Below, piece by piece: positions 2,701-56,100 of a DNA stretch of 64,000 nucleotides. The DNA lies in assembly GCF_024721305.1 (NCBI RefSeq), contig NZ_JAMXOD010000017.1, forward strand, positions 1 to 64,000, given 5' to 3'. Each line of letters opens with the position of its first letter. The first letter of the stretch is position 1. The notes under the pieces are model-generated. The model made no database searches, was not told the DNA's origin, and saw only the letters and a list, made by a program, of their open reading frames with translations. This DNA comes from Aequitasia blattaphilus. GTDB taxonomy: Bacteria > Bacillota > Clostridia > Lachnospirales > Lachnospiraceae. A program made the position numbers and the translations under genes.

Positions 2701-2709
2701 ATAATAAGA

Positions 2710-2962: not shown

Positions 2963-2984
2963 GGTGAAGTGCCGAAAGGCGCTA

Positions 2985-4132: not shown

Positions 4133-4143
4133 TAAATTAACCT

Positions 4144-4180
4144 AAATGTAAATATATAAAAAGAAAAGATGTTTACATTT
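4144..4180. promoter_or_regulatory. Candidate operator dyad
   Basis: AAATGTAAA (4144-4152) and TTTACATTT (4172-4180) are perfect inverted 9-mers with 19 bp between them. They start about 5 bp after the predicted transcription start, where a repressor would block the promoter. The divergent ArsR-type regulator is the obvious candidate to bind here. No experimental basis. Confidence 0.45.
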
Positions 4181-4204
4181 TGTTAATACATGTATTGGAA
4201 ATCT

Positions 4205-4228
4205 GAGAAAATACTGCAGGATTTTCTC
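4205..4228 (+). promoter_or_regulatory. Leader hairpin before the binding-protein ribosome site
   Basis: GAGAAAAT (4205-4212) and ATTTTCTC (4221-4228) form an 8-bp perfect stem with an 8-base loop, ending some 23 bases before the ribosome site at 4251. It may stabilise the leader or act as a second operator. Confidence 0.4.
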
Positions 4229-4264
4229 GGAGGAAGCTAAGAAGACTTGACGGAGGAAAGAAAA

Positions 4265-5632: not shown

Positions 5633-5640
5633 GTCATTAA

Positions 5641-5670
5641 GGAGGCGGATAAAATAATGCGTCTCCTTTT
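5641..5670 (+). terminator. Attenuator hairpin between binding protein and permease
   Basis: GGAGGCG (5641-5647) pairs with CGTCTCC (5660-5666, one G-T pair), followed by TTTT. Only four Ts, so read-through is expected. Such a hairpin lets the binding-protein mRNA accumulate over the permease part. Confidence 0.5.
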
Positions 5671-5690
5671 CAAAAAGAATGGAGAAAAAC

Positions 5691-6593: not shown

Positions 6594-6596
6594 AAA

Positions 6597-7433: not shown

Positions 7434-8062
7434 TGGAAATAATAAAAGAAAATTTAGGAAGTAAACTTAGCTGGTTGTGTGATATTTTCATTTTGAATAT
7501 TGTTTATGTGGTTACATGCATTCCGTTGATAACCATTGGAGCGGCTAACACGGCTCTTTACACAGTGGTATTTAGAATGGTAAAAGGTGAACGCTATGAA
7601 GTTCTTGTGGATTATAAAAGAGCATTTCGCGAGAACTTTAAGCAGGGAACCGTCATATGGTTGTTTGTAGCAGTAGTATCAGGAGTGTTAATTGTCGATT
7701 TTTTGATTGCCCCGGGCTTTTCCAGACAGTTGGCGACGATCTTTGTAATGATTATTTTAGTGCTGGGAATAATTTGTATGATGACGGGCGTATACGTTTT
7801 CCCATTATTAGCAACATTTTCAAATGGTACGATGACAATGTTAAAAAATGCACTTTTAATCAGTGTAAGACATTTGCCAAAAACTATCGTAGTAATTTTA
7901 ATTCATAGCATTCCCTATTTATTGCTGTTTATATCGGTGTCTGCGTTTATAAGGGGATACGGAGTGGTAATGCTATTTTTGGCAGGAATTATTGCCTATG
8001 GAGAATGCAGTATATTGCTGCCTATATTTAAAAAATATTTTCCGAAAGTGGAAAGAAACTAG
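7433..8062 (+). CDS. YesL-like DUF624 membrane protein
   Basis: A 209-residue protein with about five hydrophobic helices. The N-terminus (GSKLSWLCDIFILNIVYVVTCIPLITIGAANTAL, residues about 8-41) is the signature of the DUF624/YesL family. Members sit next to glycan ABC importers in many Firmicutes, but their biochemical role is not established. Its ATG overlaps the permease stop (TAATG), so it is made with the transporter. It may assist assembly or energising of the importer, which is speculation. Confidence 0.8.
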   Translation: MEIIKENLGSKLSWLCDIFILNIVYVVTCIPLITIGAANTALYTVVFRMVKGERYEVLVDYKRAFRENFKQGTVIWLFVAVVSGVLIVDFLIAPGFSRQLATIFVMIILVLGIICMMTGVYVFPLLATFSNGTMTMLKNALLISVRHLPKTIVVILIHSIPYLLLFISVSAFIRGYGVVMLFLAGIIAYGECSILLPIFKKYFPKVERN

Positions 8063-10671
<2,609 letters not shown>

Positions 10672-39794: not shown

Positions 39795-40196
39795 ATGGAA
39801 ACAGAGTTTGAATTGGATTTGGAAGTAATTGAAAAGCAGGGAAGTACAACGACGTCTCTCGGGAGTCAGTACGGTTACCCTGTGTTTAGCGAAGAATTCC
39901 AGGAAGCTGTAAAGCGAAAGAAAAGAGAAGAAAAAGAAGAAAAGACAGCTCAGATGCATCAGGTGTTTGAGGGAACAAAGAAAACGGAAACAGAAGCCAC
40001 CTTTCAGAGAGTAATGCGGGCAGAGACGGTGGGCATCGTAAAGGAAGAATCAATTGCAGAAGTAGAGGGAAGAAGCTTGACAGAGAATCTTGGATTCGCT
40101 CTATTAGGAGCCTTATTGACAGGTGGAATTCTATACTTAATCGATAAACGACTAAAGAAGGGTAAAAAGAGCCATGAATATCAAGATAACCATTGA
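39795..40196 (+). CDS. EssA-like membrane protein
   Basis: A 133-residue protein: a long charged, helical N-terminal part (about 1-95, many Glu and Lys) and one C-terminal membrane helix (LGFALLGALLTGGILYLI) with a basic cytoplasmic tail. This and its position between WXG100 and the YukD-like gene match EssA, a small T7SSb membrane component with low sequence conservation. ATG 39795 chosen for AAAGGGAAAG upstream. It overlaps the next gene by 23 bp. EssA is named by topology and order rather than by clear motif. Confidence 0.6.
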   Translation: METEFELDLEVIEKQGSTTTSLGSQYGYPVFSEEFQEAVKRKKREEKEEKTAQMHQVFEGTKKTETEATFQRVMRAETVGIVKEESIAEVEGRSLTENLGFALLGALLTGGILYLIDKRLKKGKKSHEYQDNH

Positions 40197-40434
40197 GGTT
40201 CCAACAAGAGAAAACAAAATTGATATAAGAGTAAATCAAGAACAGCGAATGAAGACGACCCTTGGGGTATTAAATGAGAATAGAAAAGGGTTTATACCCT
40301 TATCAAATATAGAAACAGTACGAATAAAGGAAACAGGAAGACAAGTCGATATAAGAGAAACTTATGAGGAGGCCGGTATATACACGGGAGCCATCCTGGT
40401 AGTGGAGGAAAAGGGAGGAGAATATGGCGAATAA
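40174..40434 (+). CDS. EsaB/YukD-like ubiquitin-fold protein
   Basis: An 86-residue beta-grasp-like protein: IKITIEVPTRENKIDIRVN at the start, and GAILVVEEKGGEYGE at the end. Size, pattern and T7SSb order fit YukD/EsaB, a cytoplasmic regulator or structural component needed for secretion. It overlaps the EssA-like gene by 23 bp and the following small gene by 11 bp. Confidence 0.75.
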   Translation: MNIKITIEVPTRENKIDIRVNQEQRMKTTLGVLNENRKGFIPLSNIETVRIKETGRQVDIRETYEEAGIYTGAILVVEEKGGEYGE

Positions 40435-40711
40435 AGTAGGATTAAGTGAAGAAGAATATGCAAACGTGGTACAAAGCCTAAAAAGTGCACATAACAATAG
40501 TGTTTCTTTAGTGGAGAATGCAATATCCCAAATTGGTGGTCTAAATGGCCCAGGAGCAGCATTTGATACAGAGAAGATTACACCTCAGATACAGCGAGTT
40601 ATAGGAGAATTGAATCGATTAAAGGGACAACTGGAAAATGTATATCACACACATGAGGAAGTAGTAGACAGTTTTCAAAGATCAATTGACGAATGCGATT
40701 CTATCTGTTAA
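40424..40711 (+). CDS. Small helical T7SS-associated protein (WXG100-like size)
   Basis: A 95-residue all-helical protein (SEEEYANVVQSLKSAHNN, then FDTEKITPQIQRVIGELN). It has no W-x-G turn but has the size and helical-hairpin look of T7SS small partners encoded directly before LXG- or Rhs-type substrates. GGAGG precedes the ATG. It probably pairs with the helical N-terminus of the Rhs protein two genes later (inference). Confidence 0.65.
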   Translation: MANKVGLSEEEYANVVQSLKSAHNNSVSLVENAISQIGGLNGPGAAFDTEKITPQIQRVIGELNRLKGQLENVYHTHEEVVDSFQRSIDECDSIC

Positions 40712-40724
40712 TGGAGGGATAAAA

Positions 40725-41012
40725 ATGGGAAATTTGAATGTAAATTATGAAGAAATAGAAGCAGTGATTAGCTCGCTCCGTGCAAGCCTGGCATCGGAAC
40801 AATCAGAAATCAATGGAATCTATAATCAATTAATCGGATATTTCAGTATATCCCGTGGTGAAGAAGCTGATGCACTGAAAGAACTGCAAAGAGCCGAGAA
40901 AAGAATGATGACAGAAGTCGCTACTTTTTTGCAGAGATTTTCAACAAGTGTGCTATTTGCGTCCAATGAGTTTAAGAAGTTTGATGCTTCCGGTGCAAAG
41001 AGTATGAAATAG
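40725..41012 (+). CDS. Second small helical T7SS-associated protein
   Basis: A 95-residue helical protein (MGNLNVNYEEIEAVISSL... then EEADALKELQRAEKRMMTEV). ATG 40725 has GGAGGG 8 bases upstream; a longer frame from 40686 overlaps the previous gene without such a site. Like the preceding protein it has the form of a chaperone or co-secretion partner for the large Rhs protein that begins 25 bp later. Confidence 0.65.
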   Translation: MGNLNVNYEEIEAVISSLRASLASEQSEINGIYNQLIGYFSISRGEEADALKELQRAEKRMMTEVATFLQRFSTSVLFASNEFKKFDASGAKSMK

Positions 41013-41037: not shown

Positions 41038-44000
41038 ATGGATCGAGTGTTTGACCAAGACTATATTAATGAGACCTGTTCTCAGGCCAAAAGTGCGTTA
41101 GAAGAAATCAAAGATGCCATGGAGTATGTAAGGGAGTTAGCAGGGGAAGTAGAGGCAGTAATCGGAAGAGTCCCAGCGGATGTCCGTAATAATAACGCGT
41201 ACACATCCATAAGCGGACTGCGCCAGGCAATTGACGCAATTGATATCGACTCGATGCTTCACAAGCTGGATGACTGCCGTGAGAATGCCAGGCTTATCCA
41301 AAGGATGGATACCCAGTACGCAGCAGAGACGAAAGCATTAACACAGACCATTAATCAGATTAAAGAAAGAGCTGCTTCCATGGGGGAGTTCTTGGTTACT
41401 ACTTCTTTGAATTCACCGGACTTTATGGCGAAGTTTGATGTGGAGCAAAGGAAGTGGAATCAAGTAATGGAGGATGCAGATGCTGCCCTTGATACTATAC
41501 TTTCCAATGTAAAAGGTGCAGAGACTATCAGTGCAATCTTTTCAAAGGACCCGGTAAACTTAAGTACTGGGAACTTTATCTATGATAAAACGGATTTGGA
41601 GATACAGAACCCAGTTCCTTTTACTTTCCGGCGTTTCTATAATAGCATCAATCGGCGAAAGGGGAGTCTTGGAAGAGACTGGAACCACAACTATGAGGTA
41701 CGCCTTCTGTTTGAAGGGGAAGAAGTAATTCTTCTGTTGGAAGAGGGAAAGGAAGAACGGTTTCTCCTACAAGAAGGGAAAGAAAAGCTTTTCTCTATTT
41801 ACCATAGTAAGGGAGAATTATCTAAGAGCGGTGACACCTATATTTATGAGAAAAAGGGTGGAATGAAATACTTCTTCGACGGAAAGGGACGGTGTCAAAA
41901 GGTTGAGAATCAAAAAGGACTACTGTTTCAATATACTTATGCAGGAGAGAGTCTCTCAGTAGCAAAAGTAGAAAAAGAAACGGGAGAATACTTTGCCTTT
42001 ACTTATGAGCAAGATGGATACCTGCAGACTGTATCGGATCATAATCAGCGAACTGTTACCTATGAAATCGAGAAGGGACTTCTAAAAAACGTTGTATCCC
42101 CAAAGGGGAATCAATACCGATATGAGTATGACTCCAAGAGAAAGCTTCAAAAAGTCATTAATCCAAGAGGAATCACTCTGGTTGAAAATACCTTCGATGA
42201 AGGAAATAGAACCATCCACCAGGCATTCCCCGATGAGGGAAGTATGTCCTATGATTACGATGATGAGAAGCGGAAGGTAACCTTAACGGAGAGAAACGGA
42301 AGTCAGGTTTCCTATTATCATGATGAAAAGTTTCGGGATATCCGTCACGTATACCACAACGGGGAAGAGAAGTTCACCTACAATCAGCTGAATCAGAAGA
42401 CCTCTGTAACGGATAAGCTGGGAAGAAAGACTCAGTACAATTACGATGAAAAAGGAAACCTCACCCGCATCATCAATCCTCTGGGGCTAAAGACAGAGAT
42501 TACTTATAATGAGAAGAATCTTCCCACCTCTTTACGCATTGGAGGACAGGAGAAATTTCGTAACCGGTATGATGAAACCGGGAACTTGATACAGACCATT
42601 GATGCCTTAGGAAACCGTCAGCTCTTCCAATACGAAAAGCCGGGTCTCCCTCAAAAGATACAGATGCCAAACGGAGGCGAGATTACCCTCTGTTATGACA
42701 AAAGAGGAAACATCCTTCGCATTGTAGAAGCTGATGGGGATACCACGGAGTATGCGTACGATTGCCAGAACCGTGTCATCGCAACGAAGGATGCTTTCGG
42801 AAACACCACCAAATATACTTATGATGCAGAAGACAACCTATTGGAGGTGGAAAATGCCAAGGGTGAAAAGCGTCATTATGAATACAATCAAGGGAACAAG
42901 GTCACTCAGATCTGTGACTTTGATAAGACCATCTTAAAAAGAGAATACAATGAGCTTGGAAAGCCTTGTAAAATCATTGATCAGGAAGGCAGGGAAACCC
43001 TCCTGCATTACGACAGGATGTGGAACCTGGCAAGGGTAACGGAGGCAAATGGAGCGAAGACCACATACGTTTACAATGAAGACAATCTTCTGGGACGGGT
43101 GCGAAATGGGAATGGAGAGGCCATTCGCTACACCTATGATCCAGTGGGAAACCGCACCAGCATCAAGGATGAGGAAGGGAATCAAACCTTCTTTGCTTAT
43201 GATGCCTTAAACCGCCTTGTGGAAGTAAAGGATGAGAAGGGAGTAAAGGAATCCTACGCCTACGATGGGGAAGGGAATCTAATCGAGGTGCGGGATGCTT
43301 TGGGACTCAGCCTGACCCTTACTTATGATGCCATGGGAAACCTTATAAGAGAAGAAGGTCGAGAAGGAGAGAAGCGGGAATACACCTACAATGCAAACGG
43401 AGTCATTACAGAGATTTGGGATGAAGCAGGAGGCGTTACGAAGTATGACTATACTCTTGGAGGGAAGCTAAGAGAAGTAAGTTACCCGGATCAAACGAAG
43501 GAAATCTATACGTATAATCAAGTGGGAGAGGTGGAGACCTATACGAACCGGAAGGAGTATGTCTATACCTATTATTATGATTGCCTTCATCAGCTTATCA
43601 AGATAGAAGGAGCACAAGGAGAGACGAGAGCGTATACCTACGATGCTGTTGGAAACTTAACAGGCTTTACGGATGAAGAAGGCAATGCAACAACGTACCG
43701 GTATTCACCGTCAGGACAATTAGTGGGAGTGGTAGATGCCTTAGGTCATGAAACCACGTATACTTATGATGCAGTGGGAAGATTGGAAAGTGTTCCGGGA
43801 ACCACTTATCAAAGAGACTTAATGGGGAACATCACAAAGGTAATTGATGGAGTGGGAAATGAAGAAAGCTATCACTACGATTCAAGAGGTTTGCTTCTCT
43901 CGAAAGTGGATCAAGAAGGTTACCTGACTTCTTATGCATACAACCGTGAGGGAGACCTGCAAAAGATTACTTATGAGGATGGAAAGGAAGTTAAGCTGTC

Positions 44001-45822
44001 CTACGATGCCCTGAGACATCTGAAAGAAATCGAAGACTGGGGAGGAATCACCAGAATTGAAAATGATACCAGAGGAAGAGCGAAAAAGGTCACTTATCCG
44101 GACGGAAAAGAAGTGTCTTATACTTATGGACCATCGGGAGAGCGAAGAAGCATCCGGTACCCCGATGGGAAAGAAGTTTTCTACTCTTATGACAAGAGCT
44201 TGCGCTTAAAGGGATTAAAATCAGAAGAACAAGAGCTGACCTATGCTTATGACCAGAGAGGGAATCTTATCGAGAAGAAATCGAATCTCGGGTTTGCGAC
44301 CTCTTATGCGTATAATCAAAAGGGACAGATGGAAAGCCTCGTCCATCAAAAGGGAGAAGAGGTTTTAGACTCTTACACTTATGCTTACAATCAAATGGGA
44401 TTAAAGAGCAAGGTTCATAAGAATGAGGAAGAATTATCCTATACCTATGACCCTATTGGGCGTTTACTAGGTGTGGAAAAAGCAGGAAATAAAATCCGGG
44501 AATACGCATATGACCATCTGAGCAATCGCATCCGTAAGATACAAGAAAATCAGAAGACGGAGTATACTTATAACAGCCAGAACCAACTCATCAAAGAGAC
44601 GGATGGTGTATTGGAAAAAGAATACGCATATGATAAACGGGGGAACCTAAAGGCGATAACGGAAAACAACCAGTTGACTCATCAGTATACTTTCGGAGCG
44701 ATGAATCGTCTGGAGAAGGCACAGAACTTCACCTTAAATCAATCTGCAGCCTACCTGTACAATGGTCTGGGACACCGGGTTGGAAAAAGAGTTGGAGAGA
44801 AGGAAGTCTTGGATATCCTGGACTTAACGAAGGACTATCATAACTTATTGGAAAGAAGTGAAGGAGAGGAACACACTAGCTTTACCTGGGACTTCCAGGT
44901 GGTAAGTGGAAGGAAAAAGGAAGAGAGCTTCTTCTACTTCCAGGATGATTTGGGGAGTCCAATTCACCTACTGAGCTCCAATGGACAAGAGGACGTATAT
45001 CAGTATGATGAGTTTGGGAATCAGATGATGAACCAAGAATCAAGTATACCACAGCCATTCACCTATACCGGGTATCAGATGGATTCGATTGCTGGAACTT
45101 ATTATGCTCAGGCGAGAGAGTATCAGCCACAGGTGGGTAGGTTTATCAGTGAGGATGTGATTAAGGGAAATGGAATAAATCCAGTTACAATGAATCAATA
45201 TACCTACTGTTGGAATCGGCCGATGGATTTGGTGGATCGAGATGGAAAAATGCCGGATGGATTAACCCATGATGACATAATAATGTTCTATGAACATCCA
45301 GAGTATTTGGTGCCATATAGTATCGAGGGAAATGGCCCGGGAGGGTATGATGATGATGTGTTATATCATAGTGACGTTAAAGGACCAAGTTTAAAAATTA
45401 AGCCAAGTACAGTTGATATAGGTAAGGAGGTTAAAAAAGATTCAACAATAGGACTAAACATTATAAGCGTTGATGGAGGAATAGGTAAAGTTAGTTATAA
45501 GGATAATAAAGGATTGTTGCAATCGATACTCGAATTAGAAGTTGTTCATGGGGGAGCCAATATAGGAATAAATACTAAAAATGTGGGAGCAAAGTTGTAT
45601 GGGACATTGGTATCTTTACGTGGAAAGGTACTTGCATTAGAGGTGTTGGACAAAAGAATTTATATAGGTGCAGATTTAGATCTTTTTTCTGTAGGTATTA
45701 AGGCCAGTTTGGATATCAAAAAAAAGGAATTTACAATGGGAGCTTCAGAAGGGGTAGGATTTGCGATTAATATCACATGGGAAGAGAGGGGACAAGTTAA
45801 CGATGAGTGTGAGGTGGATTAA
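41038..45822 (+). CDS. Giant Rhs/YD-repeat polymorphic toxin with T7SS-type N-terminus
   Basis: A 1594-residue effector. Residues 1-165 are helical and LXG-like, with no signal peptide, which suggests export by the adjacent T7SS. DPVNLSTGNFIYDKTDL (from residue 171) opens a DUF6531-type Rhs start, followed by several dozen YD repeats (YDxxGN patterns) that would form the cocoon shell. The core ends at GRFISEDV... and VDRDG (1400-1403), where Rhs tips are cleaved. The 190-residue tip (1404-1594) is beta-rich and unknown to me. The last 500 bp of the core recur three times downstream. Two immunity candidates follow. Confidence 0.85.
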   Translation: MDRVFDQDYINETCSQAKSALEEIKDAMEYVRELAGEVEAVIGRVPADVRNNNAYTSISGLRQAIDAIDIDSMLHKLDDCRENARLIQRMDTQYAAETKALTQTINQIKERAASMGEFLVTTSLNSPDFMAKFDVEQRKWNQVMEDADAALDTILSNVKGAETISAIFSKDPVNLSTGNFIYDKTDLEIQNPVPFTFRRFYNSINRRKGSLGRDWNHNYEVRLLFEGEEVILLLEEGKEERFLLQEGKEKLFSIYHSKGELSKSGDTYIYEKKGGMKYFFDGKGRCQKVENQKGLLFQYTYAGESLSVAKVEKETGEYFAFTYEQDGYLQTVSDHNQRTVTYEIEKGLLKNVVSPKGNQYRYEYDSKRKLQKVINPRGITLVENTFDEGNRTIHQAFPDEGSMSYDYDDEKRKVTLTERNGSQVSYYHDEKFRDIRHVYHNGEEKFTYNQLNQKTSVTDKLGRKTQYNYDEKGNLTRIINPLGLKTEITYNEKNLPTSLRIGGQEKFRNRYDETGNLIQTIDALGNRQLFQYEKPGLPQKIQMPNGGEITLCYDKRGNILRIVEADGDTTEYAYDCQNRVIATKDAFGNTTKYTYDAEDNLLEVENAKGEKRHYEYNQGNKVTQICDFDKTILKREYNELGKPCKIIDQEGRETLLHYDRMWNLARVTEANGAKTTYVYNEDNLLGRVRNGNGEAIRYTYDPVGNRTSIKDEEGNQTFFAYDALNRLVEVKDEKGVKESYAYDGEGNLIEVRDALGLSLTLTYDAMGNLIREEGREGEKREYTYNANGVITEIWDEAGGVTKYDYTLGGKLREVSYPDQTKEIYTYNQVGEVETYTNRKEYVYTYYYDCLHQLIKIEGAQGETRAYTYDAVGNLTGFTDEEGNATTYRYSPSGQLVGVVDALGHETTYTYDAVGRLESVPGTTYQRDLMGNITKVIDGVGNEESYHYDSRGLLLSKVDQEGYLTSYAYNREGDLQKITYEDGKEVKLSYDALRHLKEIEDWGGITRIENDTRGRAKKVTYPDGKEVSYTYGPSGERRSIRYPDGKEVFYSYDKSLRLKGLKSEEQELTYAYDQRGNLIEKKSNLGFATSYAYNQKGQMESLVHQKGEEVLDSYTYAYNQMGLKSKVHKNEEELSYTYDPIGRLLGVEKAGNKIREYAYDHLSNRIRKIQENQKTEYTYNSQNQLIKETDGVLEKEYAYDKRGNLKAITENNQLTHQYTFGAMNRLEKAQNFTLNQSAAYLYNGLGHRVGKRVGEKEVLDILDLTKDYHNLLERSEGEEHTSFTWDFQVVSGRKKEESFFYFQDDLGSPIHLLSSNGQEDVYQYDEFGNQMMNQESSIPQPFTYTGYQMDSIAGTYYAQAREYQPQVGRFISEDVIKGNGINPVTMNQYTYCWNRPMDLVDRDGKMPDGLTHDDIIMFYEHPEYLVPYSIEGNGPGGYDDDVLYHSDVKGPSLKIKPSTVDIGKEVKKDSTIGLNIISVDGGIGKVSYKDNKGLLQSILELEVVHGGANIGINTKNVGAKLYGTLVSLRGKVLALEVLDKRIYIGADLDLFSVGIKASLDIKKKEFTMGASEGVGFAINITWEERGQVNDECEVD

Positions 45823-46195
45823 GCGAAAAAAACAATTTGCATGTTTTATGGTGGTGCTTGTATTTGAACTTTGTGCCATAATTATTAAATCATTTAGTTA
45901 TTATGGGATATGGCTATATGTTTTACTAGCATTAATCTTTGGAATTATTGCTAGTGTAGGGACTATTGTTGTGGTATGGTGTCTTGACAAAGTACTTGAT
46001 AAACTTTTCAAAATTGATTTTGTTAAATTCTATATTGCAACAATTCGAATTGTTATGTTCATTTCTGTACTGGGTATGCTTCCAATTATCATATTATCAA
46101 AAGTGGATGGAGATATGGTTATTGCAATAGGAGTTACTACAGGAACATATGTAGGAATGAATTTAGTATCAGAGAAACGAGAAAATAAACTATGA
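45803..46195 (+). CDS. Four-helix membrane protein, immunity candidate for Rhs tip
   Basis: A 130-residue protein with about four membrane helices (ACFMVVLVFELCAIII, IWLYVLLALIFGIIASVGTIVVV, FYIATIRIVMFISVLGMLPIII and a short last one). ATG 45803 overlaps the Rhs stop by 20 bp and is preceded by GAGGGG. Position right behind the toxin tip, tight overlap and lack of other function suggest an immunity protein. If right, the tip acts at the membrane. No family recognised. Confidence 0.55.
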   Translation: MSVRWIKRKKQFACFMVVLVFELCAIIIKSFSYYGIWLYVLLALIFGIIASVGTIVVVWCLDKVLDKLFKIDFVKFYIATIRIVMFISVLGMLPIIILSKVDGDMVIAIGVTTGTYVGMNLVSEKRENKL

Positions 46196-46776
46196 AAAAG
46201 ATATATAGCATTGTTCGTAAACGGGAAGAAAGTGATATGGGAAGTCTCTATAAATACTTTATAGGTGATTTTCCAATGATGTATTCATATACAAACTATC
46301 ATAGAGGTGCGGCATATATATATTGGCACGCTGAGATAAACCATAGATATGAAGTAAAGCAAAAAAATAAATATTATAGATTTCTGGAATTTATTCCTGT
46401 GATAAATACAATTTATGCTTGGTTTTATAGTCGGAAATATGAAGTTTTATTAGATGATAAGTTGGTTGGATATTCCGATATGGTCAAAGTAGGACGGATT
46501 TTGGAAAGAGAAAGAGTAATGGTAAATGGTATTGAATATATCAATAAGGCTGGAAATACATCCGTAAAACGTCCGGGCAAAGATTATGAATGGACTATTG
46601 AAACAAGTACTGGACATAAGGTGGCCATAATTACTAAAAGAAGAAAGGACGAGGAATTGGCTATCGAATTTGTTGATGAAAAGGTTGATTTAGAAATAGT
46701 AATTATTTTGGTTATGATGGCTGATATGACTTCCTTTTCCCCAGAACGAACCGGACAAGTAAGTATGTACGATTAG
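46192..46776 (+). CDS. Unknown protein coupled to immunity candidate
   Basis: A 194-residue protein with an ATGA overlap with the previous gene. It has aromatic-rich N-terminal residues (MMYSYTNYHRGAAYIYWHAE), a central hydrophobic stretch (FLEFIPVINTIYAWFY) and a beta-rich second half (YEVLLDDKLVGYSDMVKVG...), faintly like LURP/tubby-type barrels. It may be the actual immunity protein or a second one. I cannot assign a family. Confidence 0.5.
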   Translation: MKKIYSIVRKREESDMGSLYKYFIGDFPMMYSYTNYHRGAAYIYWHAEINHRYEVKQKNKYYRFLEFIPVINTIYAWFYSRKYEVLLDDKLVGYSDMVKVGRILERERVMVNGIEYINKAGNTSVKRPGKDYEWTIETSTGHKVAIITKRRKDEELAIEFVDEKVDLEIVIILVMMADMTSFSPERTGQVSMYD

Positions 46777-47165
46777 AGTGAAAATGTGTTTCCTTATTAG
46801 GCGAATCAAATATCTATTATAGAAATGAGTCGGCTATGATAAATCAGTCTGCGGATAAAATATACTTTTCTGGTATTACGATGTATAGGATTGGAGTCAA
46901 GAGCCTCACCAAATTGATTTATCTGAACTTACATTAGAAGAAGTAAGAGAAAAGCTTGATATACAAACAGAAGATAGAAAGAGGGGAAGCATAAATAAAT
47001 AAATAAATAAAACAAGAAGAAGCATATAGATATGAAACTATCATTTAAAGAATAGGTTAAACGTTTTGAAGGTGAAAATGATGTGATTCTTTTTTATACG
47101 GTAATAAAGGATAAAAATACAGAAGAATTGATATGTGCAAAGATTAGTAAAAAAATAATGAAGTT
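46777..47165 (+). pseudogene. Immunity-gene debris, first copy (start codon lost)
   Basis: No intact gene. 46875-46998 encodes a degraded C-terminal end (WSQEPHQIDLSELTLEEV... ending in a stop), an older immunity remnant. From 46981 the sequence parallels the leader of the intact gene at 48389, but the ATG is replaced by a TAAA repeat (46991-47010). 47066-47155 then encodes RFEGEN followed by LFYTVIKDKNTEELICAK, the same as residues 93 onward of that gene, with the middle deleted and stops in frame. It joins abruptly to Rhs core sequence at 47166. Confidence 0.65.
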
Positions 47166-48368
47166 AATCAATCTGCAGCCTACCTTTACAATGGTCTGGG
47201 ACATCGGGTTGGAAAAAGAGTTGGAGAGAAGGAAGTCTTGGATATCCTGGACTTAACGAAGGACTATCATAACTTATTGGAAAGAAGTGAAGGAGAGGAA
47301 CACACTAGCTTTACCTGGGACTTCCAGGTGGTAAGTGGAAGGAAAAAGGAAGAGAGCTTCTTCTACTTCCAGGATGATTTGGGGAGTCCAATTCACCTAC
47401 TGAGCTCCAATGGACAAGAGGACGTATATCAGTATGATGAGTTTGGGAATCAGATGATGAACCAAGAATCAAGTATACCACAGCCATTCACCTATACCGG
47501 GTATCAGATGGATTCGATTGCTGGAACTTATTATGCTCAGGCGAGAGAGTATCAGCCACAGGTGGGTAGGTTTATCAGTGAGGATGTGATTAAGGGAAAT
47601 GGAGTATATCCAGTTACAATGAATCATTATGCTTATTGTTGGAATCGGCCGATGGATTTGGTGGATCGGGATGGACGGATGCCAGATATTAGTATAGCCG
47701 ATATTGAAAACATGAAGGTTCTAAAAGATGAAGTTACCGAGTTTATGGTACAAAATGTATTTGGAGTGACGAGGACACACTATGAAGATAGTGATGGTGA
47801 GCTAACTAATATAAGTATCACATCGCATCAAGGTGGAAATATAGTAGTAGCCAATATTAATACTAAAAAAAGGTTTACAGGTTATTCAGTAAATTTCAGT
47901 ACTCCCCAAATGTGGAAATTCAAGGCTTCCGCATCAGCAAATGTGAACTTTAATGATTGGAAAAAATGTGGAATATCCTCTTCCTTATCTATGAACGAGG
48001 GACAGGTTACAACGGCTTTTGGGATGCAAATCAGTTGGGATAAATCTGAATTTTATGGTAAAATTTCGGATTCCTATCATACAGGAGATTTGAAAATACC
48101 TGGATTAGATGATTTGCCGAATATTCCATTAGGGGCTACGATATCTGTAAAAACAACTCAACATGATTTCACAAATCTTGTAAGAGGATATTGTATTGTA
48201 GCGCCGATAGTAGCAGCTGGCTGTGCTGCGTTGGCTTGTGCTAGTCCCGCACTTGTGGGTGTAGCAGGAACAGGCGGTGTAAAACTTTTGATTGATGTAC
48301 TAGAGATAATGCTTAAGCAGGCACCTAAATATTTGGGGCTAAAAGATACGAGCGATTGTAATTCCTAG
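47166..48368 (+). CDS. Orphan Rhs core end with alternative toxin tip
   Basis: Bases 47166-47676 repeat the 3' end of the Rhs core (44745-45250), almost identical until GNG, then slightly diverged up to VDRDG. There is no start codon for the core part; the frame is open from 47151, and TTG at 47238 is the earliest start-like codon. The ~230-residue tip after VDRDG is unrelated to the main tip. It contains a beta-rich part and a C-terminal hydrophobic region (CIVAPIVAAGCAALACASPA) that may insert in membrane. It is a silent spare cassette that could replace the main tip by recombination. Confidence 0.7.
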   Translation, partial: NQSAAYLYNGLGHRVGKRVGEKEVLDILDLTKDYHNLLERSEGEEHTSFTWDFQVVSGRKKEESFFYFQDDLGSPIHLLSSNGQEDVYQYDEFGNQMMNQESSIPQPFTYTGYQMDSIAGTYYAQAREYQPQVGRFISEDVIKGNGVYPVTMNHYAYCWNRPMDLVDRDGRMPDISIADIENMKVLKDEVTEFMVQNVFGVTRTHYEDSDGELTNISITSHQGGNIVVANINTKKRFTGYSVNFSTPQMWKFKASASANVNFNDWKKCGISSSLSMNEGQVTTAFGMQISWDKSEFYGKISDSYHTGDLKIPGLDDLPNIPLGATISVKTTQHDFTNLVRGYCIVAPIVAAGCAALACASPALVGVAGTGGVKLLIDVLEIMLKQAPKYLGLKDTSDCNS

Positions 48369-48388
48369 GTGAAAGAGGGGAAGTATAA

Positions 48389-49072
48389 ATGAATAAAACA
48401 AGAAGAAATATAATAATAATAATAATAATAGTAATTGCATGTGTCTTTGGCATTCTAACAATTCTTTTTTATGGAGTATATAAATCTCTTGCAAGTATGG
48501 AAATGAAGAGTATAGACCAGATAATAAAAGAAAGTGAAGAAGCTCATAAAAATGCGCAATATTATGATTCAATAGATAAAGCTATGGAGTTGTGGGATGT
48601 GGCAGAAGAATATGAATATCGGATTGATATTAAAGAGGAGATAATACGCTTTGAGGGTGAAAATAACGCCATTCTCTTTTATACAGTAATAAAAGATAAA
48701 AACACTGAAGAATTAATATGTGCAAAAATCAGTAAAAAAAGTAATGAGAATAGTCAACCTGTTTATGCTGGGAAAAGGATGCTGATTTTTGGTGATAATA
48801 GAAAAGGAATAATTGTGGGTTCAAATGAAGATTTGATACGCGACTATATTGATACTAGTTACTCAAGAGTAGATTTTAGATTTAATCCCGACGAACAGTT
48901 TATTTGGGGCATCAGCCGGACAGAGAAGGTAAGGGATTTAAAGATAGAAAACCAAAAACCAACCGAAGTGATTATATATGACTGCTTTGGTGAAAAGGAA
49001 TATTTTTGGTACTATGAGAACTTAGATGCAACCGGCTCACCTCAAGACTGGGATATTGAATTAGAAGAATAA
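48389..49072 (+). CDS. Immunity protein candidate for orphan tip, copy A
   Basis: A 227-residue protein anchored by one N-terminal helix (residues 8-31, starting with a run of Ile) and an extracytoplasmic-looking alpha/beta domain (YEYRIDIKEEIIRFEGENNAI... EQFIWGISRTEKV). GAGGGGAAG precedes the ATG, 20 bp after the orphan tip stop. Position directly behind a toxin tip marks it as the immunity gene. A second copy lies at 49432 and a dead copy at 46991. The Ile run is encoded by an ATA triplet repeat (48412-48431). Confidence 0.65.
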   Translation: MNKTRRNIIIIIIIVIACVFGILTILFYGVYKSLASMEMKSIDQIIKESEEAHKNAQYYDSIDKAMELWDVAEEYEYRIDIKEEIIRFEGENNAILFYTVIKDKNTEELICAKISKKSNENSQPVYAGKRMLIFGDNRKGIIVGSNEDLIRDYIDTSYSRVDFRFNPDEQFIWGISRTEKVRDLKIENQKPTEVIIYDCFGEKEYFWYYENLDATGSPQDWDIELEE

Positions 49073-49431
49073 ATAGGTGAAGAAAAAATTTAATTAATTA
49101 CAAAGGAAGTACATAGTACTAAAAAGGAAAAGATTTTTCGTTTTAAATGGACAAGAGGACATATATCAGTATGATGAGTCAAGAATCAAGCATACCACAG
49201 CCATTCACCTATCACAAATTTTGTAAGAGGATACTGTATTGTAGCGCCGATAGTAGCAGCTGGCTGTGCTGCGTTGGCTTGTGCTAGTCCCGCACTTGTG
49301 GGTGTAGCAGGAACAGGCGGTGTAAAACTTTTGATTGATGTACTAGAGATAATGCTTAAGCAGGCGCCTAAATATTTGGGGCTAAAAGATACGAGCGATT
49401 GTAATTCCTGGGTGAGAGAGGGGAAGTATAA
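49073..49431 (+). pseudogene. Rhs core and toxin-tail fragments, second unit
   Basis: 49146-49212 repeats Rhs core sequence (NGQEDIYQYDE) but lacks about 22 bases, breaking the frame. At 49213 it joins the last ~65 codons of the orphan tip (from 48170), through the same VAAGCAALACASP region. The tip stop TAG is TGG here, so the frame runs to the TGA at 49433. With the following gene this is a tandem duplication of the tip-tail plus immunity unit. 49073-49145 shows nothing else. Confidence 0.7.
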
Positions 49432-50106
49432 ATGAATAAAACAAACAGAAATATAATAATCATAGTAATTGTATGTGGCTTTGGCATTCTAACAATCCTT
49501 TTTTGTGGAATATATAAATCTTTTGCAAACATGGAAATGAAGAGTATAGACCAGATAATAGAAGAAAGTGAAGAAGCCCATAAAAATGCGCAATATTATG
49601 ATTCAATAGATAAAGCCATGGAGTTGTGGAATGTGGCAGAAGAATATGAATATCGGATTGATATCAAAGAGGAGATAATACGCTTTGAAGGTGAAAATAA
49701 CGCCATCCTCTTTTATACAGTAATAAAGGATAAAAACACTGAAGAATTAATATGTGCAAAAATCAGTAAAAAAAGTAATGAAGACAATCAATATGTTTAT
49801 GCGGCAGAGAAGATAATTATTATTAGTGGTAGTAGAAAGGGAATAAGAATAGGTACAAATGAAAACTTGATACGTAAATTTATTAACACCAGTTATCTCG
49901 AAACAGATTTTAGAGCTAATCCCGATGAACAGTTTATTTGGGGTATTAGCCGAACAGAGAAGGTGAGGGATTTAAAGATAGAGAACCAAAAACCAACCGA
50001 AGTGATTATATATGATTATTTTGGGGAAAAGGAATATTTTTGGTATTACGAGAATTTGGATGCAACCGGCTCACCTCAAGACTGGGATATTGAATTAGAA
50101 GAATAG
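49432..50106 (+). CDS. Immunity protein candidate, copy B
   Basis: A 224-residue paralogue of the 48389 product, identical over long blocks (RIDIKEEIIRFEGENNAI; EQFIWGISRTEKVRDLKIEN; the whole C-terminus) and diverged in the middle (about residues 125-170, ISGSRKGIRIG... ). It keeps the anchor helix, with a shorter Ile run, and the same GAGGGGAAGTATAA leader. Divergence confined to the middle could mean altered toxin specificity. No intact toxin precedes it. Confidence 0.65.
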   Translation: MNKTNRNIIIIVIVCGFGILTILFCGIYKSFANMEMKSIDQIIEESEEAHKNAQYYDSIDKAMELWNVAEEYEYRIDIKEEIIRFEGENNAILFYTVIKDKNTEELICAKISKKSNEDNQYVYAAEKIIIISGSRKGIRIGTNENLIRKFINTSYLETDFRANPDEQFIWGISRTEKVRDLKIENQKPTEVIIYDYFGEKEYFWYYENLDATGSPQDWDIELEE

Positions 50107-50301
50107 GCAAAGCAAAAATCAGTATGAAGAGTTTGGAAATCAGATGATGAACCAAGGATACCACAGCCATTCACTTATACCGGGTATCAGAAGGATTCGA
50201 TTGCTGGAACTTATTATGCTCAGGTGAGAGAGTATTTGCCACAGGTGGGTAGATTTATCAGTGAGGATATTGTGAAAGGATTTAAAAATATTGGTGAATG
50301 A
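50107..50301 (+). pseudogene. Rhs core remnant, third unit, tip deleted
   Basis: 50119-50272 repeats Rhs core 3' sequence (QYEEFGNQMMNQ, then AGTYYAQVREYLPQVGRFISEDI) with a small frame-breaking deletion near 50156. After GRFISEDIVKG it ends within about 10 codons at TGA; no tip follows. It stands before the 50336 gene, which is therefore probably an orphan immunity gene. Confidence 0.7.
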
Positions 50302-50335
50302 AGTCAAGTGTGCATCATAAAAGAAGAAGGAAATT

Positions 50336-50854
50336 ATGTGGAGAAGTATAGCAAGAGTATTACCATGGATAGGAGCAGTTGTTGTAATTAGATTATTATT
50401 TATTTTACAACATAAGAGCAATAAAAAAATGGAACAGAAAAGTGATTATATTATAAAGAACAGTGGCCTGATACTAATTATCGGAGGAGTAGGTGTTGTG
50501 GTTTTTGGTGCACTTATCGTATTGGCTGTATGGACGAAACAAACGAGTCCAGGAATATTAGTAGTATTTGGAGGAATGTTTTTAGTGAGTCTATACGGAC
50601 TAGTTGAATGCTTACTTTACTATGTAGAAGTAAAGGGTGATGAGATAATATATAGATCTTTTATAGGGGTCACAAAAAGATACACATTTGCGATGATAAC
50701 GAGTGGGAAATACACGAAAAGTGGTAGTTTTAAGGTTTATGTAGGAACAAAGACCATCATTAAATTCAGTGACAATATGCCATTTCAAAGGTTTGTAGAG
50801 CAAATGATAGAGAGGGGTATTCCAGTAGAAGTCTATAAATCAAAAAAAGCATAA
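50336..50854 (+). CDS. Membrane protein with PH-like tail, orphan immunity candidate
   Basis: A 172-residue protein with three hydrophobic helices (VLPWIGAVVVIRLLFIL; LILIIGGVGVVVFGALIVLAV; GILVVFGGMFLVSLYGLVE) and a soluble C-terminal beta domain (VEVKGDEIIYRSFIGVTKRYTF...), resembling small PH-like domains. GGAAATT precedes the ATG weakly. It follows an Rhs remnant without toxin tip, so it may be an immunity gene retained after its toxin was lost. Family not recognised. Confidence 0.5.
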   Translation: MWRSIARVLPWIGAVVVIRLLFILQHKSNKKMEQKSDYIIKNSGLILIIGGVGVVVFGALIVLAVWTKQTSPGILVVFGGMFLVSLYGLVECLLYYVEVKGDEIIYRSFIGVTKRYTFAMITSGKYTKSGSFKVYVGTKTIIKFSDNMPFQRFVEQMIERGIPVEVYKSKKA

Positions 50855-51032: not shown

Positions 51033-51440
51033 ATGTCACGTCTAAAGATATATGGATGGAATGAACTATCAAATGGTATATACATAGAAGTTTCGTATGA
51101 TGATTATAGTCTTAATCCCCTAATAAAGGGAAGAATGAAAGAAAAGGGATTAATTAAAGAGTTTGAGAACTATGATTTTAACGTAAATGACTATGTTGGA
51201 TTTAATTATGCTATGTCAAAGATAGATGAACTGGATAATCCAATAGAAATCATAAAACATGATATAGCAGCATTAGAACATTGGCTAATTAGATTTACAT
51301 TTAACAAGAGTCCTATGAACAAAATATCGATGAAAGAGGAACAGTTGAAAGAGTATTTTCGTGAAAAGATTGTGAAAATAGGATTAGATTTAAACAAAGT
51401 TAGATTTGAGTGCAAGAAGAGCTTTTTTCATCCGATATGA
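51033..51440 (+). CDS. Unknown soluble protein, possible immunity gene
   Basis: A 135-residue acidic soluble protein (SRLKIYGWNELSNGIYIEVS..., FNYAMSKIDELDNPIEII) without motifs that I recognise. GAGGATATAG lies just upstream. It has an ATGA overlap with a 41-codon frame at 51437. Its place in the cassette region suggests an immunity protein whose toxin is gone. It may be the 5' part of a longer gene split by a frameshift. Confidence 0.45.
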   Translation: MSRLKIYGWNELSNGIYIEVSYDDYSLNPLIKGRMKEKGLIKEFENYDFNVNDYVGFNYAMSKIDELDNPIEIIKHDIAALEHWLIRFTFNKSPMNKISMKEEQLKEYFREKIVKIGLDLNKVRFECKKSFFHPI

Positions 51441-51577: not shown

Positions 51578-52009
51578 ATGGATTTTGATGCAATTGAACT
51601 AAGAAGGAATGCAGAAAGAAGAGAGGCGGAAAGAAGAGAGGCCGAAAGAGTAGCGCAAATCTATCAGGAAGTAGCCAACATAGAGGATGAGATTGCGATG
51701 TATACTGGGGCGAGAGAAGATGTGGCATGGGTAGAGGGAAGCTTCGAGCCTGGAAGAGAATCCTGGTCGAATGCATTCCAAAGACTAAATGGGAATAGTG
51801 ATGCAAAAGAAATCGAGAAGAAATCTCAGTTCGAAGGAGAGATGGCAAAGTCCCTTAGGCAATCAATGTCCGAATTAGTGAATAATATTACAAACGGGGT
51901 GAGTAATGCTGCCAGTGTAGCAGGAGATATTTCCTATCAGATTATGCTAATTGATAATAAGATATCCGAGCTAGATACAAGTCGATACAACCTATTATGT
52001 CAGATATAA
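51578..52009 (+). CDS. YwqH-like coiled-coil T7SS accessory protein
   Basis: A 143-residue helical protein. The start repeats ERREAERREAERVAQI, a strongly charged coiled coil; the end (SYQIMLIDNKISELDTSRYN) also predicts coil. Size and helical pattern are like YwqH/DUF5082 proteins found next to LXG toxins. AAAGGAGG precedes the ATG. Its 3' end overlaps essB by 13 bp, so the secretion operon resumes here after the cassette region. Confidence 0.6.
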   Translation: MDFDAIELRRNAERREAERREAERVAQIYQEVANIEDEIAMYTGAREDVAWVEGSFEPGRESWSNAFQRLNGNSDAKEIEKKSQFEGEMAKSLRQSMSELVNNITNGVSNAASVAGDISYQIMLIDNKISELDTSRYNLLCQI

Positions 52010-53130
52010 AGGAGCCAGAAGAGATGGAGAATAGAGTAAAGAAATCCAGTCTAAATGCCAAAGAGTTTTACGACTATGAAAGACTGGTACATAAAACAGA
52101 AGGATTTATTCCAGCAAGATATGAGGAGGAACTGGAAGAGCTTATTTTTCATTATGAGATGGAAGGATTAAAGCCGATTACAGAAATTAAAGGTGAGAGT
52201 CGGGAGAATCAATACCGTCTGCTTATTAATATGGTAAAACTGGCGTCTCTTACAAAGATTTATGAGATTTCCTTTACACCGGGAAATCTTTTCTATGATG
52301 AAAATTTCTTGGTTTTAATTCAACAAAGAGACCTCTATTCCAAAGGAGTGGAGGGAAATGAAGAAGCTTTTATGGAAGTGTATCGTGCATATGTGGGAGG
52401 TGTTCTTGGGAAGAAGTATACGACAACGATGCTTCTGCAAAGTGGAAGCAACCTTCTAAAGAAAGAACAAGATTTTATTCCTTATCTAAACGCACAGACG
52501 CCAGAGGAGATGGCGGGGCTTTTAAGGGAAAAGCGAGATGCCCTGCAAAAGGAGATGAAAGAAAAAAAGGTTGTAATTACCAAGAGTTCAAACCGAATCA
52601 AAACAACAGTTTCCATTCTATCAACAGTGCTTCTAATTGGATGCTTGGTAGGCATGGGTTATTTAAGCTTAAAGATACTGCCAAAGCAAAGGCAATTGAT
52701 TCAGGCCAATGAAAGCTTTATCGCAAGAGACTTTGTTGGCTGCATTGACCAGATGAAGGAAACAGAGGTAGAGGAGATGGATGCATCCACCAAATATATC
52801 CTGGCAACCTCTTACGCAAGAAGTGAGAGTTTGAAAAAAGAAGAAATAGAAAGTATTGTGGCAAAGCTCTCTACCTCAAGCAATGAAAAAGAATTGGAGT
52901 ACTGGATTTATTTGGGACGTTTACAGTCGGATAAGGCTCAGGACATGGCGCAGGCTCTTTCCGATGATCAGCTATTGATGTATGCCTATATGAAGGAATT
53001 GAGTTTATTGGAAACGAACACGAAAATAGCAGGAGAAGAAAAAAGCCAGCGTATCCAGACCTTGGAGGATAATATCAATAAACTTGGGAAGAAGTATGAA
53101 GAGAATGTAGAGAATAACGAGGAGAAATAA
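51997..53130 (+). CDS. essB: EssB/YukC-like T7SS component
   Basis: A 377-residue membrane protein. The cytoplasmic N-terminal part (about 1-200) is a pseudokinase-like domain (LINMVKLASLTKIYEISFTP, FLVLIQQRDLY), then a single helix (VSILSTVLLIGCLVGMGYLSL, about 205-228) and an outer helical C-terminal part with a long coiled tail. This is the EssB topology. The ATG at 51997 overlaps the previous gene; ATG 52024, 11 bases after AAGGAG, is an alternative. essC follows 4 bp later. Confidence 0.87.
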   Translation: MSDIKEPEEMENRVKKSSLNAKEFYDYERLVHKTEGFIPARYEEELEELIFHYEMEGLKPITEIKGESRENQYRLLINMVKLASLTKIYEISFTPGNLFYDENFLVLIQQRDLYSKGVEGNEEAFMEVYRAYVGGVLGKKYTTTMLLQSGSNLLKKEQDFIPYLNAQTPEEMAGLLREKRDALQKEMKEKKVVITKSSNRIKTTVSILSTVLLIGCLVGMGYLSLKILPKQRQLIQANESFIARDFVGCIDQMKETEVEEMDASTKYILATSYARSESLKKEEIESIVAKLSTSSNEKELEYWIYLGRLQSDKAQDMAQALSDDQLLMYAYMKELSLLETNTKIAGEEKSQRIQTLEDNINKLGKKYEENVENNEEK

Positions 53131-53134
53131 AGGG

Positions 53135-56100
53135 ATGATGTTTGAGCGAAAACAACAGATGATTTTATCAGGGAATGCAAAAGATCCATTTGTAGATATC
53201 CTCATTCCAAATGGGGAGGAGATTACCCTAAGAATAGATGGCTCTTATATGGAGTTGAAAAGAGAAATGATGGGCATACTGCTTCACAATCAAAAGCCGG
53301 TAACCCAAGAACGTATCCAAATCCAAAAGGGAGATGAATTCCTTATTGCAGGTCTTCGTTTCACTTTTTTTGCCGATCGCATCGAGATAGAGGGTGAAGG
53401 AGTAAAAGACATTCAAACAACTCTTGCTCCTATGCCAAAGGAGGATGGAAGATTTCCGGAGTATCCCTTCTACAAGCGCTCTCCAAGAGTGATTCATACC
53501 ATTACACAGGATAAAATCGAATTGAAGGCGCCGCCCAGGAAGCAAAGTATGGAAAAGGGTGGAATACTTACGCTCTTAGTTCCGACGCTGAGTACGATGG
53601 CATTTACGCTTTTGATGGGATTTATGTTAAAGAGAGGACCTTACATCTATATGAGTGTTGGTATGACTGTGATTACCACCATTTTTTCTGTCCAAAATTT
53701 TATCAAGCAGAGAAAAGAGATGAAAGCATCCAATCTGCGACGAGAAGAGGTTTATCGAGAATATCTTTTAAATACGAGGAAAACCATTAAAGAAAAACGA
53801 AAAAAAGAAGAAGAATCTTTTGCCTATCAGTATCCAAGAGCGAAAACCATAGAGCGTATGGTAGAGCAGTACAGCAGCCGTCTCTATGAACGAACACCTT
53901 TAGAGGAGGATTTTTTGGAAGTCAATCTCGGTTTCTATAAAGGAGAATCCTTTGTAGCGGTTGGTTATGATAACAAAGAGCTGGAACTGGAAGTAGACGA
54001 ATTAAGTCTGGAAGCAAAAGAAGTTGCCAAGGAGTATAAAGCAGTACCTTACCTACCCTTAAATGTGGAATTGGGAAAGTCTCATTTAGGATTGGTTGGA
54101 TACAAAAAGAATGTACATGAGCAGATTAAATATTTGCTTTTACAGCTTACCTTTTTCCATAGTTACCATGATCTGCAGATTATAATGATTTATCACCAGC
54201 GTTACCAGGAGGAGTTTTCTTATCTCAAATGGTACCCTCATCTTCAGATTCAAAGTCTGAATGTAACGGGAGAGATTTGTAAGGAACAGGCAAGAGATCA
54301 GATTGTTGGCAGCATTCAACAGATTTTAAAGGAACGGAAACAAAAACAGGAAGAAGAGCAGGCAGCAGTAACCTTTAGCCCTCATTTTCTGTTCATTATT
54401 GATGAGCCATCATTGATTGTGAATCATACCATTATGGAATATCTTCAGGAAAAAGAATTAAACTTAGGCTATAGCTTTATCTATACCACAGATCAACAGG
54501 AGAACCTCCCGGAAAATGTAAAGACACTTTGTTTTATTGAAAACAAAGAAGAAGGAAGACTTCTCTTAAATCAAGGAGAGCATGTGAATCAGCGGTTTGC
54601 AATCCAACATCTGGAGGACATTGAGCTGGAGAAAATGGCAAGACGTCTCAGTGGTATTGTGCATCAGCAGGGAATGAAAAGCCAGATACCAGAATCGATT
54701 ACTTTTTTTGATTTATATAAAATTGAACATCCATACGAATTGGAGATTCAAAAAAGATGGGAGAGTCATCAGTCTCACAAATCCCTGTCTGTACCTTTGG
54801 GAGTCCGTGCAAAGGAAGATTATGTGGAATTAAATCTTCATGAAAAGGCTCACGGTCCTCATGGGTTAGTTGCCGGAACCACTGGCTCGGGAAAATCAGA
54901 AATTGTTCAATCTTATATCCTATCCTTAGCAGCAAACTTTCATCCTTATGAAGTGGGATTCTTGCTCATTGACTACAAAGGAGGAGGAATGGCGAATCTT
55001 TTTTCTGACCTTCCTCATCTTCTTGGAACCATCACCAACTTAGATAAGGCAGAAAGTATGCGGGCAATGGTCTCTATTAAAGCAGAATTATCCAGAAGAC
55101 AGAAAATATTTGGAGAGCATAATGTAAACCATATCAATGGATACAATCAGCTTTTCCGTTTAGGAGAAGTGAAAGAACCTCTTCCGCATCTGTTTTTGAT
55201 TAGTGATGAGTTTGCTGAGTTAAAGAAGGAGCAACCGGAATTTATGAGTGAGCTGGTTTCAGCAGCCCGAATCGGACGAAGCCTGGGAATCCATTTGATT
55301 TTAGCAACACAAAAGCCCAGTGGTGTAGTAGATGATCAAATCTGGACCAACAGTAAGTTTAAGCTCTGTTTAAAGGTGCAAAATGCCGGAGACAGTAAAG
55401 AAATGCTCAAAACACCGGATGCAGCCAATATTACACAGGCCGGCCGTGCTTATTTACAGGTGGGGAATAATGAAATCTATGAGCTGTTTCAGTCCGCATG
55501 GAGTGGTGCTACCTATCAAAAGGAAGCCTCAAAGGAAGCGAAGGAAGATGACCGGGTTTATGAAATCAATGAGATTGGACAGGGTGAACTGATTAATCAA
55601 GACCTTGGAGGAACAAGAGAAAGCAACCAGATGAAAGAAACACAGTTAGATGCAATTGTCTCTCATATTCATGAAGTATATCAAGGGATGGAGACGGTAG
55701 AGGTGAAAAAGCCCTGGCTGCCATCCTTGCCTGGCGCTCTTCTTTCCCCTTACACCAAGGAAGTAAGAGACAGCAGTTCATTTAACGTTTTAGATTTAAC
55801 ACTTGGAATTGGACGAGTAGACATTCCGGAGGAACAGGATCAAAGAGAATATTTCCTTGACTTTGAAAAGCAAGGGCATCTTCTATATATGTCCTCATCA
55901 GGGTATGGGAAATCCATGTTCTTAGGTCAGATTATACTTGGTCTTGCAATGAAAAATGCTGTTCAGAACTTAAATATGTATATTCTTGATTTAGGAAATA
56001 GTGCATTAATTCCTTATAAAGGCTTGCCTCACGTAGCAGATTATATGGGATTTGATGACGGAGAAAAGCTTCGAAAATTTCAAAAAATGATTTTAGATGA

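Follow-up and report, generated by a model that had tools for sequence, protein, structure and literature searches.

A 64,000-nucleotide stretch of DNA from one strain of Aequitasia blattaphilus (positions 1–64,000 of contig NZ_JAMXOD010000017.1, assembly GCF_024721305.1), hereafter the window, carries an Rhs effector gene within an operon of a type VII secretion system (T7SS) of the T7SSb class, and this gene is followed by three displaced copies of the 3' end of its own core. We read the arrangement as a probable C-terminal displacement array on a T7SSb-linked Rhs effector and give this reading a probability of roughly 0.88. The sequence contains one full effector, one complete module of core and tip with a putative immunity gene, two decayed core fragments, and another two putative immunity genes that are intact, all in one orientation. 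Since three probable immunity genes are intact against a single intact spare tip, the array is better described as an immunity archive with one spare tip than as the tip-switching reservoir of the original prediction. The label imm denotes a putative immunity gene throughout. The features of the effector and the array are as follows.

41038..45822, + strand: full-length Rhs effector, 1594 amino acids, composed of an N-terminal region, DUF6531, RHS_repeat, the Rhs-associated core and tip 1
44737..45255, + strand: 3' end of the Rhs core, reference copy in the repeat comparison
45256..45819, + strand: tip 1, attached C-terminal domain, presumed toxin
45803..46195, + strand: imm1a, putative immunity gene, three predicted transmembrane segments; overlaps the end of rhs
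46192..46776, + strand: imm1b, probable tip-1 immunity gene
46977..47165, + strand: third imm2 copy, truncated, which retains the upstream (ribosome-binding) region and at its 3' edge is joined to the displaced core
47166..47684, + strand: displaced core end 1
47685..48368, + strand: tip 2, intact displaced C-terminal domain, presumed toxin
48389..49072, + strand: imm2, probable tip-2 immunity gene, predicted N-terminal transmembrane segment
49146..49212, + strand: displaced core fragment 2, frameshifted and internally deleted
49212..49411, + strand: second copy of tip 2, last 67 codons only, fused directly to core fragment 2
49432..50106, + strand: imm2b, intact diverged copy of imm2
50118..50280, + strand: displaced core fragment 3, no tip
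50336..50854, + strand: imm3, putative immunity gene, DUF6560, three predicted transmembrane segments

The effector gene showed the organization of a full-length rhs with a conserved core and a C-terminal tip: it matched DUF6531 (E = 3.2e-23), RHS_repeat (E = 7.2e-106, with 20 Rhs-repeat stretches), and the Rhs-associated core (TIGR03696). When the whole genome (3.2 Mb in 60 contigs) was searched with the effector at E ≤ 0.001, there were three matches, all at the array. The core-end repeats of the original prediction were real, with copies at 47166–47684, 49146–49212, and 50118–50280. Its statements that the first repeat carries a complete and different tip with an immunity gene, and that the array lies inside a T7SS operon between the effector and essB, also held: tip 2 is open over 227 codons and is followed by the probable immunity gene imm2, and matches to YukC, FtsK_SpoIIIE, and WXG100 mark the operon.

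Displaced core end 1 was identical to the main core at 506 of 519 positions, including a perfect stretch of 399 bp (44776–45174 = 47205–47603) in the same codon phase. Two of the 13 mismatches (44757 and 44775) lie near the left edge, and the other 11 fall in the last 81 bp (45175–45255 compared with 47604–47684), a segment that differs with the tip. The variation of these last 81 bp beside the identity of the preceding 399 bp points to an exchange point upstream of the tip border. A similar decoupling of the core and its tip-proximal end was observed among the core ends of Lachnoclostridium sp. An76. The reading frame is open from the core repeat through tip 2. Among the displaced copies, only this one has the features of an orphan, that is, core homology, no N-terminus, and a cognate immunity gene, the last assigned by pairing with tip-2 homologues in other genomes.

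The other two displaced copies, on the same strand downstream, were shorter and more degraded, and neither has a complete tip. Fragment 2 (about 66 bp, as compared with 519 bp for copy 1) was 97% identical to the main core over 34 bp and 93% over 42 bp, and the tip-2 remnant fused to it, together with the following DNA, showed 97% identity over 258 bp. Fragment 3 (about 160 bp) matched at 90% in its longest stretch free of gaps (132 bp), and a stop codon occurs within about 10 codons of its end, with the DUF6560 gene next. Decay therefore grows with distance from the effector, from a nearly complete core end with a full tip to a short frameshifted piece and then a tipless one, as expected if the oldest layers lie furthest off. 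A promoter-like site, TGGACA-16-TATGAT, was found in the core repeat (44982, 47411, and 49148), and fragment 2 starts almost exactly there; this is possibly a core-internal promoter for the downstream immunity genes, although such sites are not above chance frequency in the region. Site-specific recombination was considered and was not supported, since the displaced copies begin at different places (47166, 49146, and 50118); no integrase was noticed on reading the open reading frames (ORFs) between 36000 and 56000, a reading that included no search aimed at one.

Intact putative immunity genes (imm2, imm2b, and imm3) follow all three displaced ends, so that in 49146–50106 and 50118–50854 they stand directly behind remnants of effector 3' ends. 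The imm2b protein was 85% identical to that of imm2, and the gene is intact despite the loss of most of its tip. Between the two genes, the nonsynonymous and synonymous divergences (dN and dS) were 0.082 and 0.376, a dN/dS of about 0.22 that suggests divergence under purifying selection; the ends are conserved and the middle is divergent (residues 121–170: dN = 0.31, dS = 0.70). The imm3 product matched DUF6560 (PF20197, E = 1.4e-28), and homologues of imm3 follow Rhs ORFs in two An76 loci, L066 and L080. The broken imm2 copy retains an upstream region like that of imm2. Before it lies an apparently non-coding remnant (46776–46976), perhaps the 3' end of another tip in a decayed state; among the fetched loci it had no convincing match except copies of the window itself.

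To place the array among its relatives, named genomes were scanned with an alignment of the core end. The best 80 of 114 matches fell in 72 loci, mostly of Lachnospiraceae or other Clostridia; 17 of the 72 contained a T7SS marker gene, and 30 had more than one core end on the same strand. In a separate set of 145 genomes of relatives, with the window's own included in all figures, the core end was matched in 47, and in 18 of these 47 at least two same-strand core ends lay 0.5–10 kb apart. Such arrays are common. An76 L066 contains a T7SS operon with an Rhs effector 46% identical to that of the window in the N-terminal 240 residues; downstream of this effector come two long displaced Rhs ends, trailed by small genes. 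In L058 and L060, a long Rhs ORF is followed by displaced core ends, which separate Rhs DNA from essB/essC. L107 has displaced core ends ahead of essC and showed no full-length effector. In L101, essC is preceded by a core end, a tip, and an imm2 homologue, and the locus starts just upstream at the end of the contig. A scan of the named genomes with the displaced protein as query found no relative, and both tips were absent from all 249 other genomes of the family that were searched (250 including the window's own). In the genus set of three genomes, the other two matched EssC partially (query residues about 568–770 of 1384), and one of them had a distant Rhs match (36%).

The pairing of tips with immunity genes was surveyed in the ORFs of 81 fetched loci, with phmmer at E ≤ 0.01 for tip-2 homologues. 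Tip-2 homologues were found in four loci, and in three of these (L064, L070, and L101) an imm2 homologue follows directly. Tip-1 homologues occur in An76 L088 and L070; in L088, a homologue of imm1b directly follows (E = 1.6e-21), and imm1a had one weak phmmer match in the fetched loci. In L044 (bases 1–9000), a run of small genes includes an imm2-like gene that also matches a YezG-like immunity family, a DUF6560 gene, and a sub-threshold match to Imm74; there was no Rhs match in those 9 kb, and the run resembles a polyimmunity locus. By eye, two adjacent ORFs resembling insertion sequence genes were seen inside each of two An76 Rhs arrays (L070:9181–11396 and L080:10708–11945). In L093:11160–17477, an imm2-like C-terminal fragment (54%) occurs twice, each time with a small transposase-like ORF, again by eye.

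Recombination at core ends was examined in An76, for which 19 core ends were compared and, after five partial ones were dropped, 14 were used in the recombination tests. The pairwise homoplasy index of these 14 complete ends was 0.575, against 0.787 in permutations (p ≤ 0.001). Distances in the last 90 bp were poorly predicted from the middle core (Mantel r = 0.16, p = 0.15) and from the 5' half (r = 0.24, p = 0.08), whereas the two upstream core segments agreed with each other (r = 0.48, p = 0.002). The T7SS effector of L066 and a second Rhs end, in L064, show no difference between −120 and +240 relative to the core end (100% identity) and diverge on both sides of this block, and a cassette shared by An76 and a locus of another species (L107) was 91.6% identical over 1653 bp. 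The An76 core ends are recombinant mosaics, and recombinant junctions exist in related loci; none was seen in A. blattaphilus, of which one strain was covered.

These results are consistent with a process in which incoming DNA made up of core, tip, and immunity genes would enter by homologous recombination in the 3' part of the core and would push the older tip and its immunity genes downstream. Entry may occur by single-crossover integration of a circle, as in the model of Jackson et al., or by one-sided homology with a microhomology joint, as in that of Kirchberger et al., two routes that are not separable here. The displaced tips would then decay while immunity genes are kept, probably since they are still protective. 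Reversal would be possible at copy 1 only, where recombination between the 399-bp repeats would remove about 2.4 kb (tip 1, both imm1 genes, and the broken copy of imm2) and leave the effector with tip 2.

Several points weigh against the displacement reading. The array comes from one strain, and neither displacement nor switching has been seen directly. The tip-2 homologues are distant (21–26% identity, E = 5e-7 to 9e-3), the one with the best E value (L058) had no detected imm2 homologue after it, and imm1b follows only one of the two tip-1 homologues. The selection on imm2b may have acted wholly before the loss of its tip. Neither tip belongs to a known toxin family, structure models of the two tips were poor (mean predicted local distance difference test scores of 48.7 and 34.8), and toxicity, immunity, and secretion are all predicted from sequence alone. 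Lastly, the contrast between the imm2 remnant and the cores, described below, could reflect gene conversion of the core.

The alternative that survives best is an active switch, in which continuing exchange would maintain the 399-bp repeat, the 2.4-kb segment would regularly be excised and perhaps re-inserted, and the population would be a mixture of tip-1 and tip-2 cells; we regard it as possible and on balance doubtful. One point in its favour is the identity of the window's pair of core ends. In a comparison of the window with 19 of the 30 multi-copy loci (11 loci were omitted because they lack full-length ends, and so were several short partial ends), 44 within-locus pairs from 20 loci were obtained, and the window's pair was the sole one at or above 99% (1.000 over 330 bp; next 0.958, median 0.85), although perfect repeats tend to break draft assemblies and other such pairs may be hidden. 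Since this pair stands alone, the displacement may plausibly have been very recent, or else exchange may still be going on. The confinement of mismatches to the neighbourhood of the two edges would also fit exchange, and a comparable fusion is reported for Salmonella (PMC3967940). However, a single recent displacement gives the same identity, and the two left-edge mismatches are weak evidence. The prediction that recombination between repeats would replace the tip and delete what lies between stands for copy 1, whose perfect, same-phase 399-bp repeat is ample, and fails for the copies at 49146 and 50118, where the product would be a truncated or tipless effector. The name of tip-switching reservoir was likewise justified to the extent of one usable donor and was overstated otherwise, since two of the three displaced ends are broken and the deletion would remove the probable immunity genes of the current tip (imm1a and imm1b). 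Switching at a meaningful rate in present populations seems to us rather unlikely, and a live reversible switch, with the repeat kept perfect by recombination and cells both excising and regaining the 2.4-kb segment of tip 1 and its immunity genes, somewhat less likely still. If such a switch did operate, sibling cells would deploy different T7SS-delivered toxins, and the extra immunity genes would keep the population mutually tolerant.

The array could instead be an unselected accumulation of recombination debris with no function. The two broken displaced ends and the truncated imm2 copy agree with this, but imm2, imm2b, and imm3 are all intact, the dN/dS of the imm2 pair is low, and tip 2 has stayed open. 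Homologues of imm2 and imm3 are moreover retained in other genomes, including the immunity-like gene run of L044. We consider a functionless array improbable.

Slightly less probable again is a tandem duplication of the effector end in place, after which the first tip would have been replaced or would have diverged, with no incoming DNA. The repeats are direct and in one orientation, and where the broken imm2 copy meets core copy 1 the two sequences share AATCAAT; an overlap of at least 7 had a probability of 0.0007 at random core/imm2 junctions, calculated with imm2 and imm2b as stand-ins for the true parent. Compared with imm2 and imm2b, however, the broken copy reached only 83% identity in 109 bp, whereas the flanking cores were 97.5–100% identical; a simple recent tandem duplication would not give this contrast without later homogenization of the core. 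Furthermore, tip 1 and tip 2 resembled each other at no more than background DNA identity.

That the tips of two strains were joined through the 399-bp repeat during assembly is very improbable: perfect repeats are difficult for short reads and this is a draft of many contigs, but a two-copy direct repeat with single-copy flanks should, by reasoning, leave only one linear order into which every piece fits, neither fragments 2 and 3 nor the imm2 copies are perfect repeats, and comparable arrays occur in many other assemblies.

The effector is probably a large secreted antibacterial toxin. Searches of Pfam and NCBIfam found no toxin family in the effector or the displaced protein besides the Rhs domains, and PADLOC reported nothing for either. 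Profile searches against the PDB gave weak results for tip 2 (best E = 0.18) and for tip 1 (fluorescent proteins, E = 0.03), and we therefore claim no activity for either tip. Tip 2 has a hydrophobic stretch near its C-terminus, and imm2 weakly matched the membrane segment of FliL in the PDB (E = 0.003). The predicted transmembrane segments of the putative immunity proteins suggest a target in the envelope, and no more than that.

The genes around the effector and the array complete the operon. The gene order on the + strand is an EsaA-like gene, a WXG100 gene, an EsaB-like gene with small partners, the Rhs effector, the displaced array, essB, and essC.

37106..39403, + strand: membrane protein, presumably EsaA/YueB-like of T7SSb, named from its position; weak sub-threshold match to ABC2_membrane_3; a 24% identical homologue occupies the same position in An76 L066
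39460..39738, + strand: WXG100 protein (EsxA); Pfam WXG100 E = 8.5e-12, TIGR03930 above cut-off
40174..41012, + strand: genes that we take, again from position, to encode an EsaB-like protein and two small WXG100-like partners; weak sub-threshold family matches; homologues beside the T7SS Rhs gene in L066
51033..51440, + strand: ORF of 135 amino acids with no family match, between imm3 and the small gene preceding essB; AT-rich (G+C 0.29)
51997..57289, + strand: essB and essC of T7SSb; YukC E = 5.8e-76, FtsK_SpoIIIE E = 1.4e-52

The small partner closest to the effector matched WXG100 below the cut-off only. The ORF at 51033..51440 may encode another immunity protein, with no remnant of its toxin left. 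The tips, imm genes, and spacers had a G+C content of 0.22–0.38, compared with 0.44 for the effector core. Promoter-like sites (47, against 54.2 in shuffled sequences) and terminator-like sites (10, against 10.6) were not above shuffled expectation, so the operon structure was assigned on gene order alone. No terminator-like site was found on the + strand between 41571 and 55719, such sites being at chance frequency in the scanned region.

The window offers a clear, probable example of layered Rhs tip displacement, a process known in detail from Gram-negative loci, here in a T7SSb operon from a genome of Clostridia type. The array points to a longer survival of immunity genes than of their toxins, and to the imm2 family, imm1b, and DUF6560, which are otherwise anonymous, as probable immunity proteins. 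The perfect 399-bp repeat also makes tip switching directly testable by sequencing alone.

The displacement arrangement is already described in other bacteria, and the idea of switching between a main gene and an orphan is not new. C-terminal displacement was named and modelled for the Rhs arrays of Enterobacteriaceae (Jackson et al. 2009, PMC2935791). As in those arrays, a full rhs gene is followed by core fragments of variable length with different tips, and attached and detached cores are nearly identical; unlike them, the window's array lies in a T7SSb operon and has only one intact displaced end. The orphan Rhs of Salmonella LT2 (Koskiniemi et al. 2014, PMC3967940) is similar: an orphan tip lies downstream, has an immunity gene of its own, and shares core homology with the main gene through which the two can fuse. 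There, fusion of main gene and orphan has experimental evidence, whereas the window's array is known only as sequence, and the Salmonella Rhs proteins are described as exported by the type VI secretion system (T6SS), whereas the effector of the window is T7SS-linked. In the T6SS arrays of Vibrio cholerae (Kirchberger et al. 2017, PMC5361080), orphan immunity genes likewise accompany displaced 3' ends of former effectors, and homology-facilitated illegitimate recombination was proposed as the model; the secretion system again differs from the T7SS of the window. The Rhs orphan arrays of bee gut bacteria (PMC8125069) also differ in being T6SS-linked and Gram-negative.

Among T7SS loci, the gene content resembles that described for Listeria LrhA/LrhI (PMC10327511), with DUF6531 and Rhs repeats in a T7SSb locus with essB and essC, small WXG100-like partners, and an immunity protein with a transmembrane segment, a likeness by description and not by alignment. 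LrhA lies after essC, whereas the effector and array of the window lie before essB; truncated copies of lrhA were suggested in the same paper to be templates for tip variation. The imm2/imm2b pair also recalls the T7SS immunity paralogues esaG and tipC (Garrett et al. 2022, PMC9484751), tandem paralogues with shared blocks; the blocks of tipC are at both ends, and imm2 and imm2b likewise have conserved ends and a divergent middle. Displaced effector fragments such as those of the window are not mentioned for esaG/tipC in the abstract of that paper. In the literature on Rhs and T7SS in Lachnospiraceae and Clostridia, in a partial collection, no title or abstract opening describing such arrays was found. 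A survey of 2012 (PMC3482391) covers polymorphic toxin systems that have cassettes and trailing immunity genes and that count type VII among their routes of secretion.

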